A stretch of DNA of 51,058 bases, from the IMG/VR virus record IMGVR_UViG_3300022592_000007, positions 1 through 51,058 of that record; one strand, 5' to 3'. Source of the stretch: a virus. A program made the translations under genes and the position numbers. The notes beneath the pieces were generated by a model that did no database searches, was not told where the DNA came from, and worked only from the letters and a program-made list of their open reading frames with translations. Below, piece by piece: positions 5,393 through 26,583 of this stretch (positions are counted from its first letter, which is position 1; every line of letters starts with the position of its first letter).

Positions 5393-5466
5393 GAATTATG
5401 AATACCCGGTAAGTAGAGCGTATAACCCAGCGATCCATCATGGGCGCATATCATAGGACCTGGCTA

Positions 5467-5498
5467 CATCCATCCACCATCCACCATCCAGCATCCAG
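5467..5498. repeat. Heptamer tandem array CATCCAC/CATCCAG
   Basis: Four head-to-tail heptamers: CATCCAC, CATCCAC, CATCCAG, CATCCAG (5471-5498), preceded by a partial CATC (5467-5470). It lies in the non-coding divergent region, so a role as a small iteron array is possible. It may also be replication slippage. Confidence 0.5.
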
Positions 5499-5616
5499 CA
5501 CACACAACCCAAGCCAGAATTGGGCAACGCTGGCGGCGGATGAAACACAGCACCGTGCTCAGAAATTACGGTTCTCGAATTCCACAAAATCCCCCTGCTA
5601 TGCGAACAAATTGGGG

Positions 5617-5622
5617 TATAAT
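5617..5622 (+). promoter_or_regulatory. -10 box (GTATAAT) for the rightward leader and operon
   Basis: TATAAT preceded by GGGG. A start seven to eight bases further would begin the transcript at 5629-5630, exactly at the 5' strand of the closing helix of the leader. The -35 side (CTGCTA at 16-base spacing) is weak, 3 of 6 to consensus. Confidence 0.5.
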
Positions 5623-5629
5623 AGAGAAC

Positions 5630-5765
5630 GAGACGGGCGGCGTGGAAGGACACGCGATAGGTGTAGAAGGTCTCAAAACAAGACGACAATTAGACCTCAG
5701 TCGTCCACCTATTAGGAATCTACCGGCAAAGATTAATAGCGGGTACTCAAGCCCCGCCCCGTCTC
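5630..5765 (+). ncRNA. Structured 136-nt 5' leader with crossing helices
   Basis: Closing helix: GAGACGGG plus CGG (5630-5640) with CCGCCCCGTCTC (5754-5765). Inside: hairpin GCGTG/CACGC (5640-5655); ATAGGTG/CACCTAT (5657-5663 with 5706-5712); within this AGGTCT (5668-5673) pairs AGACCT (5692-5697) and GACGAC (5682-5687) pairs GTCGTC (5700-5705), two helices that cross; and TACC-GC/GC-GGTA (5721-5727 with 5739-5745). The connecting loop of two bases is tight for a standing pseudoknot, so the two inner helices may be alternatives, as in a switch. The ribosome site (AAAGGAGAAGG) follows at 5772. I cannot match it to a known riboswitch. Confidence 0.6.
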
Positions 5766-5784
5766 AATAACAAAGGAGAAGGAT

Positions 5785-5973
5785 ATGACCAAATGGAATC
5801 CGATAAGTCGAAGTCCTAAAGAGAATGGGGAGTATCTTGTCTGTTATGCTTCTAAAAAAGACAGGAGTAGGAAGTATGTATCCGTAAGTACATGGGTGGG
5901 GATATGGGAGAGGAATGAATATCCTATGATAGAGATAAGTCATTGGGCAAAGTTGCCTAAAGTGCCGAAATGA
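5785..5973 (+). CDS. DUF551-like small protein
   Basis: A 62-residue protein, MTKWNPISRSPKENGEYLVC at the start and HWAKLPKVPK at the end. The pattern W.PIS..P.ENGEYLV....... ITHW..LP.PP is that of the DUF551 family, common in phages and of unknown function. AAAGGAGAAGGAT sets the start. It is the first gene behind the folded leader and is coupled to the HNH gene by an ATGA overlap (5970-5973). Confidence 0.8.
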   Translation: MTKWNPISRSPKENGEYLVCYASKKDRSRKYVSVSTWVGIWERNEYPMIEISHWAKLPKVPK

Positions 5974-6326
5974 TAAGATACAAAAGATATGATCCATTGG
6001 CGGCAATTATTACTCTCTTGATAATGGACTGGGTATTTAAGCCAAGGATAGATAGGCACGATGAATATCAAGATTACTTGCAGAGCGACCACTGGAAGAG
6101 GGTTAGAAACGTAGTGGGTCAAGATGCTAATTGGCTATGTGCAGTAAAAGGATGTGGTAAGCATGGGAGACACTTGAATGCCCATCACCTACATTATCGG
6201 AGCCTTGGAGAAGAGAGGGAGGGAGATGTGGTATATGTCTGCCCATATCATCATAAACTTATTCACAAAAACCACGCGTTTAATAGACGGGGCGGCGGAG
6301 TAATTCCAGCCTTTAGTTACAGGTAA
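5970..6326 (+). CDS. HNH endonuclease-like protein
   Basis: A 118-residue protein. A hydrophobic N-terminal stretch (residues 9 to 24) is followed by YLQSDHWKRVRN, then a zinc-HNH module: Cys57 and Cys62, AHHLHY at 71 to 76, a Gly/Glu-rich turn (SLGEEREGD), Cys91, and HH/H at 94, 95 and 99. This is the layout of small phage HNH nucleases. Such proteins can act in DNA nicking, packaging (together with terminase) or homing; location upstream of terminase permits a packaging role, but this is inference. Start overlaps the previous stop. Confidence 0.75.
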   Translation: MIRYKRYDPLAAIITLLIMDWVFKPRIDRHDEYQDYLQSDHWKRVRNVVGQDANWLCAVKGCGKHGRHLNAHHLHYRSLGEEREGDVVYVCPYHHKLIHKNHAFNRRGGGVIPAFSYR

Positions 6327-6528: not shown

Positions 6529-6545
6529 TGAACTTGGAGGCTACT

Positions 6546-7013
6546 ATGTTTGTCCTTGTTGAACAGATGCTACAGAACGAAGTTACACTGGAACGAACCA
6601 ATTCGGCCGTTTACAGACAGATGGCGGATGAACTTGATAATATGGGCTGGGGCGGGTCTGCCAAGTTCATGCGTAAGTCTAGTGATGATGAATTGACTCA
6701 CGCAGATAAATTCTGTGGAGTCTTGGTTGATCGGAACATTACCCCAATTTACGATACAATTCGGAAGATCGAAATGGTAAATGGAAGGCTGACGGATTAT
6801 TTCTATTCCGCCTACGCCGCCGAACAAAAGACTACCGCCGCCATTGAAGAAATATATAAGACCGCGCACGATGAGGGCGAGTTCCTTGTTACTCAGTTCT
6901 TACAGTTCTTCCTCGAAGAACAGAGAAATTCTGAGCGCGAGGTTTGGGACATCATTCAAATGTTGGAAGCATCGGATGAGTGGCGCTTGATTGACGAAAA
7001 ACTTGGAGAGTAA
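6546..7013 (+). CDS. Ferritin-like iron storage protein
   Basis: A 155-residue four-helix ferritin. An earlier TTG is open, but GGAGG stands at the right distance before ATG 6546. The ferroxidase ligands of bacterial ferritins are in place: Glu16 and Tyr23 (LERTNSAVYRQM), Glu49 and His52 (DDELTH), Glu93 (YAAEQ) and Gln126 (FLEEQ). The helix order and FLQFFLEEQ...E match FtnA, whose length is similar (about 165). Two of the outer C-site Glu of FtnA appear replaced (Asn128, Ser129), so iron turnover may differ. Ferritins oxidise Fe(II) and store it in 24-mers. A phage copy could protect DNA or hold iron during infection (inference). Confidence 0.85.
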   Translation: MFVLVEQMLQNEVTLERTNSAVYRQMADELDNMGWGGSAKFMRKSSDDELTHADKFCGVLVDRNITPIYDTIRKIEMVNGRLTDYFYSAYAAEQKTTAAIEEIYKTAHDEGEFLVTQFLQFFLEEQRNSEREVWDIIQMLEASDEWRLIDEKLGE

Positions 7014-10212: not shown

Positions 10213-10998
10213 ATGGGTATTCCCAAAGACGTTCTACGTGAAGATTTATGTTTGGGAGATTGGTCAATTTGTATTGCCTACCGAGGTAGTATCGCCCATG
10301 GAATGTATATTCCCTCTACCGACCCAAATTCCATAGACGATAAAGACGTAATGGGGGTATGCGTCCCCCCGATTGATTATTACTTCGGTTTACACGCTGT
10401 TGGGGGAATGTTTCCAACCAATGGAACTAAAGAAATTAAAAAGGATGAATGGGACATTGTTGTTTATGAGGCCAATAAGTTTATTCATCTTTTATCTGTT
10501 GGTAATCCCAATGCATTAACTTTGCTTTATCTTGACCAGAATTATTATATCAAGAAAGAACCGGCGTTTGACCTACTAATTGAAAATAGAGACGCGTTTG
10601 TTGGAAGGCATGTTTATCGTTCATTTACTGGTTATGCTTATGGACAATTACACAAAATGACTCATGGACAGAAACTCGGTCACATGGGCCAAAAGCGGAT
10701 TGAATTGTTTGGAAAGTATGGATATGATTGCAAAAATGCCGCCCATCTTATTCGGCTACTTCGCATGGGTATTGAATATCTAAAAGATGGTTGTCTTTAT
10801 GTACTACGGGAAGACGCTACACAACTTCTTGAAATAAAGCGCGGCGAATGGACTATGGAGCAAGTGGAAAAAGAATCAGACTGTCTTTTCAAGTTGGCGG
10901 AAGAGGCTTATCTAAACTGCAAACTTCCTAAGGGGCCGGATATTGATAAAATTAATAAATTGGCGGTAGAAGTAATCAGAACATCTTTGAAAATATAA
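10213..10998 (+). CDS. Predicted nucleotidyltransferase, RlaP-like
   Basis: A 261-residue protein of the DNA polymerase beta type nucleotidyltransferase fold. The core has RGSIAHGM (Gly25, Ser26) followed by SIDDKDVMGV with the acidic metal residues at about 42 to 45, then a VVYEANKFIHLL helix and SVGNPNALTLLYL, a pattern of the RlaP/PF10127 family. The C half is helical (MGIEYLKDGCLYVLREDATQ). RlaP relatives are linked with RNA repair; phage members may modify tRNA or proteins (inference). AAAGGATAAAAA sets the start. It stands alone behind its own -10 box. Confidence 0.8.
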   Translation: MGIPKDVLREDLCLGDWSICIAYRGSIAHGMYIPSTDPNSIDDKDVMGVCVPPIDYYFGLHAVGGMFPTNGTKEIKKDEWDIVVYEANKFIHLLSVGNPNALTLLYLDQNYYIKKEPAFDLLIENRDAFVGRHVYRSFTGYAYGQLHKMTHGQKLGHMGQKRIELFGKYGYDCKNAAHLIRLLRMGIEYLKDGCLYVLREDATQLLEIKRGEWTMEQVEKESDCLFKLAEEAYLNCKLPKGPDIDKINKLAVEVIRTSLKI

Positions 10999-25450: not shown

Positions 25451-26583
25451 CATTCAAAATCGTAATCATCTCAGACATGGACGCAACGGGGTCTGGTTAC
25501 GCGTCCATCACTACCGCACTTGGAAGTAGACTTGCCAATCTAGGACACGATGTCAAGATTATCGGTCTTTCCTATCAAGGACAGGAACACAACTTCAAGT
25601 TCTCGCTCTTTCCTTGTGTGGGATTGAACGATGCCTACAACATGCTCTACCAGATGAAAACTCTCTTCAATCCAAATGTGGTAATAGGGTTGGCTGACAT
25701 TCCCAACCAAGAGCCTCTCTGTAAGATGGCAAAAGAATTTCAGATCCCCTATATCTGCATCACCCCCATGGAGAACGGCCCTCTCTGTGCAACCTGGGCA
25801 ATGATTTTGGCTCAAGTCAGTAAATGCTATGTCATGTCTGAGTTTGCAGTAAAAGAATGTGAGAAGATGGGGATAAACGCCGAACATCTGGTTATTGGAG
25901 TAGACACAGAGGCGTGGAGGCAACCCACCAAAGAAGAACGAGATAAGCTCAGGGAGTCTTTGGGTGTAACGAATGAATTTGTCATCCTAACCGTCGCAGA
26001 TAATCAAGAGCGGAAGAACCTGTGGGGCGCATTCGCCTCGCTTGAGATATTCAAGGATAAATGCAAGAAGCCCTTTAAGTACTGGTTGGTTACAAGAGAG
26101 AACCAATTTGTCGGATACAGACTCCGAGATTTATCGCAAATTCATGGAGTGTCGCAGGAGACAATGATATTCGAGCGTGGGATGCCGTTCAAACAACTGT
26201 GGGGTCTGTTTGCTGCCGCAGATGTGTTTCTACTCGTTTCCAAGGCTGAAGGACTGGGACTCCCCGTGTTGGAAGCAATGTCCTGTGGGCTTCCAGTGAT
26301 GGCAGTTCGGACTGGCGTGCTAATCGAACACCTTGACAACGGGCGCGGTATCTTGGTTCCTCCAGAATACTCATTTACGGATACTTGGGGAAACTCTCGC
26401 AGGGATATGATAAACAGGGCGCATTGCGCTTTGTCTCTACTCGATTTTGTCGAAAAGATTACAGTTCCCAACACTGAAGAATCCCGAAAGTACGTGTTGA
26501 ATCGGAATTGGGATAAATCTGTCAATCAACTGCTCAAAGGAATTGAAGATGTCTCGAATAAAGTCCAAGAACCTGTCCAGTAA
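25447..26583 (+). CDS. Glycosyltransferase family 4
   Basis: 378 residues, GT-B fold. MTFKIVIISDMDATGSGYAS gives a Gly-rich donor loop; the middle has LVIGVDTEAWRQPTKEERDK, the typical hinge with IGVD, and TVADNQERKNLWGAF. The donor site reads KAEGLGLPVLEAMSCGLPVM, containing the E(x7)E motif that defines GT4 enzymes. Length is normal. The last 35 bases overlap the next gene. Uses a nucleotide sugar with retention of configuration. Confidence 0.9.
   Translation: MTFKIVIISDMDATGSGYASITTALGSRLANLGHDVKIIGLSYQGQEHNFKFSLFPCVGLNDAYNMLYQMKTLFNPNVVIGLADIPNQEPLCKMAKEFQIPYICITPMENGPLCATWAMILAQVSKCYVMSEFAVKECEKMGINAEHLVIGVDTEAWRQPTKEERDKLRESLGVTNEFVILTVADNQERKNLWGAFASLEIFKDKCKKPFKYWLVTRENQFVGYRLRDLSQIHGVSQETMIFERGMPFKQLWGLFAAADVFLLVSKAEGLGLPVLEAMSCGLPVMAVRTGVLIEHLDNGRGILVPPEYSFTDTWGNSRRDMINRAHCALSLLDFVEKITVPNTEESRKYVLNRNWDKSVNQLLKGIEDVSNKVQEPVQ

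Follow-up and report, generated by a model that had tools for sequence, protein, structure and literature searches.

The window, by which we mean the whole stretch of DNA analysed, is a virus record of 51,058 bases in which a first-pass annotation had placed a structured leader RNA at 5630-5765 in front of a rightward operon of DUF551 and HNH genes. All window features given here lie on the plus strand. The TATAAT box that the annotation had named as a -10 element is present at 5617..5622, within a promoter region (5566..5624) that is 81% identical over 59 nt to phage L002 (blastn) and similar in phage L004 (alignment), and the transcription start predicted from it, at about 5629-5630, falls on the first base of a closing helix. 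This acceptor-like helix pairs a 5' strand, GAGACGGG (5630..5637), with a 3' strand, CCCGTCTC (5758..5765). The longer helix that had been claimed holds for these 8 bp; its extra pairs fall on the CG linker (5638..5639) and the foot of the hairpin that follows. Between the two strands and after the linker follow a D-arm-like hairpin, GCGTG GAAGGA CACGC (5640..5655), an insert of 83 nt (5656..5738) and a T-arm-like hairpin, GCGGG TACTCAAGC CCCGC (5739..5757), which directly abuts the closing helix.

Three helices described in the insert are exact complements: 5657..5663 with 5706-5712, which is also present in the minimum free energy (MFE) fold, and two helices that cross in a probable pseudoknot (5668..5673 with 5692-5697, and 5682..5687 with 5700-5705). 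The MFE fold places a small hairpin at the 3' end of the insert (5717..5734, with 5717-5721 paired to 5730-5734). A further proposed helix at 5721-5745 conflicts with the conserved hairpin at 5739-5757 and finds no support. Overall, a 151-nt stretch folds at -49.9 kcal/mol, against -34.3 +/- 3.9 kcal/mol in dinucleotide shuffles (z -4.0, with 0 of 200 shuffles as good). The ribosome-binding site AAGGAGA (5773..5779) lies outside the RNA, as had been noted, and belongs to the next gene (5785..5973, 62 aa), which the annotation had called DUF551 and which has no Pfam match; an HNH-like protein of 118 aa follows (5970..6326), with no Pfam match at 0.001. Elsewhere in the window, a ferritin-like protein (6543-7010, Pfam PF00210) is encoded a few genes upstream of the terminase, and an RlaP-type RNA repair nucleotidyltransferase (10213-10998, Pfam PF10127) occupies a position unusual for a phage late region. 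RlaP was considered as a partner of the RNA and rejected, being found only in the window phage, a near-identical record and one huge phage.

The scaffold and its distribution

Five related phages were recovered via terminase homologues in IMG/VR; the HNH protein led only to the two relatives of the window phage already known, and blastn of the window leader against annotated phages returned no close homologues. In L004 a similar promoter precedes another structured leader, whose only feature in common with that of the window is the hairpin GGCGTGGAAGGACACGC. When viral contigs were searched for GCGTGGAAGGACACGC, at least 120 matches were obtained, and the contexts of the matches listed share a single layout, in which a closing helix that varies in sequence is followed by CG, the hairpin and a long variable stretch, and then by a T-like hairpin of the type GCCGG UAUCAAGC CCGGC set directly against the closing helix's 3' strand. 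With the D-arm-like hairpin as sole selector, a T-arm and a complementary closing helix were present in 104 of 119 of the matches listed, a figure that counts what passed a first crude filter and includes a few spurious cases. A descriptor script collected 165 distinct copies; a one-strand scan of 2 Mb of shuffled sequence gave no hit. Because the D-like hairpin had been imposed in this first search, a second one imposed only the T-like hairpin, AGCCGGTATCAAGCCCGGC, and in this case the D-like hairpin and a complementary closing helix were found at 115 of 143 sites.

A covariance model was built from an alignment of 51 copies (alignment A1) that did not include the window. It matches the window at exactly 5630-5765 (E 5.6e-11), the very interval in which the structured RNA had been proposed, and detects between one and three copies per record in 31 of the 32 records tested, the L002 record having none. 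Altogether the family numbers over 200 distinct copies, carried by phages and prophages whose hosts are mainly proteobacteria. At the place of the window element, and behind the same promoter, L002 carries a different structured RNA (2326-2400, +) with a 10-bp closing helix, CCAGCCATCG/CGGTGGCTGG, a possible GTGC/GCAC pseudoknot inside and no relevant Rfam match; possibly, another type of RNA occupies the same position there.

Covariance analysis over homologous copies, which the first-pass annotation had named as a check, revealed compensatory changes in 15 of the 18 scaffold pairs of A1. Pairing is retained in 97.4% of cells of this alignment, compared to 78.1% when shuffled and 27-43% when slid, and the covariation score is 0.50 against 0.12. 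Compensatory changes affect all eight pairs of the closing helix in the 51 sequences and four of the five pairs of the T-like stem, while all five pairs of the D-like stem covary in the T-arm-selected set, where variants such as GCGTG/CACGC, GCGCT/AGCGC, GCACG/CGTGC and ACTCG/CGAGT occur; G-U pairs are retained in the stems of A1. By this comparative evidence, the conserved scaffold is composed of three helices arranged like the outer half of a tRNA, with the insert in place of the anticodon arm. Its closing helix is most often 7-9 bp long, and its linker is CG in 152, CA in 11 and CC in 2 of the 165 copies in the descriptor set (98 CG, 16 CA and 1 CC of 115 in the T-arm-selected set). The D-like stem is 5 bp long and closes a loop GA-N-GGA, in which N is 1-2 nt and the GG is invariant, and the T-like arm has five pairs, a loop with the consensus UNUCRAGC and no gap to the closing helix, with 1-2 extra loop bases in some copies (e.g., UACUCAAGC in the window). 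From the invariance of the D- and T-like loops, which cannot covary, and by likeness to tRNA, we infer that these loops may dock as in the tRNA elbow.

Several copies depart from this plan. A very long closing helix of 12-21 bp is present in L014, L028, L047, L052, L055, L058 and L108, several of these helices starting CCATCA...TGATGG, and the L052 element is fused to a tRNA 3' end. In L282 (minus strand), about 45 nt of additional sequence appear to be inserted within the D-like loop, at the variable position of GA-N-GGA.

The hypervariable insert

The insert varies from 42 to 190 nt in length across the family, and its last base is an A in 156 of 158 copies. Nearly all copies carry unrelated inserts (233 inserts fall into 214 clusters), and that of the window is unrelated to the inserts of all other copies, including its nearest homologue, L004. 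The replacement is evident even between close relatives. For instance, the inserts of L180 and L188 are unrelated, behind nearly identical promoters and within identical scaffolds, L108 and L109 have the scaffold and short homologous flanks in common and the inserts not, and L086 and L185 are 90% identical in their upstream DNA and differ in their inserts.

A helix whose 3' strand ends beside the final A is strong in 54% of inserts, against about 22% of shuffles, and a second helix crosses it in 52% of inserts, compared to 37% of shuffles. This significant family-level excess of crossing helices agrees with the crossing helices that had been proposed for the window, which follow the family plan but sit farther from the T-like arm. 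The signal comes only from this position-specific test: an unconstrained pseudoknot scan of the inserts was uninformative, and pseudoknot-free folding is only weakly better than in shuffles (mean z -0.3). Within small insert lineages, paired changes preserve the 3' helix, as in the L082/L011 group (GTTAC/GTAAC to GTCAC/GTGAC) and in a lineage common to five phages (L058, L256, L278, L354 and L357), GAAGCTGTAG-N5-GGTAGGC..GCCGAACG-AAGC-N5-A, in which the paired changes affect the helix beside the T-like arm.

Some inserts contain tRNA sequence. That of L118 (minus strand) encloses a complete tRNA-Gly(GCC) at 1812-1884, that of L295 a degenerate tRNA, and canonical tRNA T-arms occur in 6 of 233 inserts against 0.15 expected. 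A small reading frame finds no support in the inserts, which have fewer SD-start signals than shuffles and no frame bias in their lengths. An antisense repressor RNA of the C4 type was also considered and rejected, because the inserts have no long complementarity to nearby sequence (the longest match to the flanks averages 9.1, against 8.5 for unrelated inserts).

Exchange of the insert as a cassette, together with the whole or nearly whole tRNA genes in two inserts, could also be explained if the element acted as DNA, for example as a folded single-strand recombination or insertion site with the insert as captured cassette. This is very improbable, as the stems retain G-U pairs, promoters line up with the first base, the T-loop and D-loop features are RNA-like, and the neighbouring genes include no constantly associated recombinase.

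Genomic context and candidate roles

In the family as a whole, -10-like hexamers are most frequent at -11 from 8-bp closing helices (22 against 1.6 per position) and are present at -17 to -10 in 54 of 226 copies, compared to 9-17 in control windows. The start predicted from them falls on the first base of the closing helix, which supports the presence of an own promoter in a fair share of copies. In about three quarters of the copies a -10 box cannot be recognised at the start, and only 3 of 148 elements have an intrinsic terminator directly downstream, no more than upstream; many copies may therefore belong to longer transcripts. No constant neighbour gene was found with PHROGs or Pfam, the commonest PHROG family accounting for 4 of 135 neighbours, as called from simple and rough open reading frames. 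Some copies are antisense to, or between, genes on the opposite strand, others adjoin tRNA genes, and tandem copies occur. As a -10 box often places the start at the closing helix and no neighbour gene is constant, the element is most likely a free-standing noncoding RNA, to judge from its sequence context. It is found in unannotated gaps of the Komagataeibacter phages phiKX1 and phiKX2, Caulobacter phage DMCA (element at 25553-25687), Pseudanabaena phage Pan3 and Acidovorax phage AP1, as well as in one of a Roseomonas plasmid. Among cellular genomes it is sporadic (3 of 190 of one class and 5 of 300 of one order), as expected for prophage-borne sequence.

Taken together, these data suggest that the window element is probably one copy of a family of phage noncoding RNAs that combine a conserved tRNA-like scaffold with a fast-evolving insert. 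If so, it would be a new RNA class, invisible to current annotation, in phages of several proteobacterial orders and one cyanophage.

An unlikely alternative to such a family is that the element processes or stabilises RNA, its tRNA-like arms being a hook that RNase P or RNase Z would cut, so that polycistronic phage transcripts are punctuated or capped, while the insert is neutral. The arms themselves, the adjacent tRNA genes and the position between genes are in keeping with this, as is an occasional CCA after one unpaired base past the closing helix (8 of 153 copies against about 2 expected per position; L103, L085, L106 and L114 are among them). A neutral insert, however, would be expected to shrink or vanish, yet it is never shorter than 42 nt and keeps both its terminal A and the helix beside the T-arm, and a promoter at the first base of the RNA leaves no 5' leader to cut.

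Less probable still is the riboswitch or protein-bound leader of the first-pass annotation, a cis-acting element controlling the gene directly downstream. The ribosome site does lie 8-20 nt past the closing helix in the window and in L004, and about 30 of the 113 downstream starts listed (by crude gene calling) are within 34 nt. However, the same RNA stands before, after or antisense to genes that are unrelated to one another, many copies being antisense to or between opposite-strand genes, and it also occurs beside tRNA genes and in tandem. The part that contains the crossing helices, which should house the ligand pocket or the switch, is swapped wholesale between relatives, and neither of these behaves in that way. 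A regulatory role in the DUF551/HNH operon, as the annotation had suggested, is thus not supported.

Returning to the noncoding RNA family, close relatives have exchanged their inserts and the element is spread sporadically, which suggests that novelty is selected for. We infer from this that the RNA may take part in a conflict with host defence or with other elements, in which the insert would evolve as in an arms race. No direct link of the RNA to any defence system was found. It is possible, and we propose it tentatively and with less than even confidence, that a natural tRNA-like scaffold is loaded with an ever-changing pseudoknotted domain, sometimes a whole tRNA, and serves as a general cassette for displaying RNA effectors when phages are in conflict with hosts and rival elements. 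Within the probable reading as a noncoding RNA family, the D- and T-like loops would dock as a tRNA elbow to form a compact, nuclease-resistant scaffold, possibly trimmed by host tRNA enzymes, and the insert tends to form a helix that ends beside the T-like hairpin, often crossed by another helix. Less certainly, the scaffold would present this fast-evolving domain to act in trans on a quickly changing target, most plausibly host defence or a competing element, for which the insert might be a decoy, an inhibitor or a specificity RNA. In the window, the RNA would head the transcript of the rightward operon and may be released from it or stay in place as a protective leader; as no terminator precedes the ribosome site, this 5' segment may be capped or released. 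Should the noncoding RNA reading be right, insert exchange around a conserved scaffold would be a mark of conflict, and counter-defence or specificity between phages, based on RNA, would become testable in named laboratory phages.

Comparison with known RNA classes

The annotation had been unable to match the window RNA to any known class, and the comparison with Rfam bears this out. At the gathering score there was no family match in the whole window or in 29 loci, apart from a tRNA nested in one insert, and a relaxed search of window positions 5400-5900 (E up to 5) returned nothing relevant. Open-access full-text literature yielded no description of such a family. The family is absent from Rfam and, as far as the open literature shows, previously undescribed. 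In outline it resembles the tRNA mimics (tmRNA, Y RNA and the yjdF fold), yet it fails the membership tests run.

The closest likeness in fold is to tRNA itself (RF00005), with the same order of helices: an acceptor-like helix, a D-like arm with GG in its loop, and a T-like arm (U..UCRA) stacked without a gap on the acceptor-like helix. Unlike tRNA, the element has the hypervariable insert instead of an anticodon arm, a 5-bp D-like stem with a 6-nt loop and a T-like loop of 8-9 nt; the invariant GG and the UCRA-like sequence are accompanied by 1-2 extra loop bases relative to tRNA. Similar arms, tRNA neighbours and the tRNA pieces in some inserts might suggest a degenerate tRNA, tmRNA or bacterial Y RNA, an origin that we consider scarcely credible, given that in none of 153 elements does ARAGORN recognise the whole as a tRNA or tmRNA, the closing helix varies in length instead of keeping to 7 bp, there is no general CCA, and degenerate genes would not retain 97% pairing through compensatory change.

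With tmRNA the element has in common a tRNA-like outer part and a large insert able to hold pseudoknots, whereas its insert is not conserved and shows no signal of a tag reading frame (no excess of start sites). Bacterial Y RNA (YrlA) is a noncoding RNA that mimics tRNA arms and is known from some phages. The element displays similar mimicry but differs in that its carriers lack a Ro60/TROVE gene (0 of 30 records). Engineers have used tRNA scaffolds in which a foreign RNA takes the position of the anticodon arm and is protected by the outer tRNA fold; the element would be a natural counterpart of these RNA-stabilising scaffolds, with the difference that its arms match no known tRNA.

The yjdF riboswitch is a leader RNA of tRNA-like overall shape (PMC9142559), whereas the element has no Rfam match and is not bound to one gene. 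Finally, the VIPR vrRNA is a phage noncoding RNA of about 100 nt that joins a hypervariable part with alternating GGY/NN repeats to a structured constant part (PMC13142463). The inserts studied here have no GG peak at lag 5, as VIPR-type repeats would give, and the constant part of the element encloses the variable part, whereas that of vrRNA follows it. As an idea of a hypervariable phage RNA, the vrRNA is nevertheless the nearest to the family described here.
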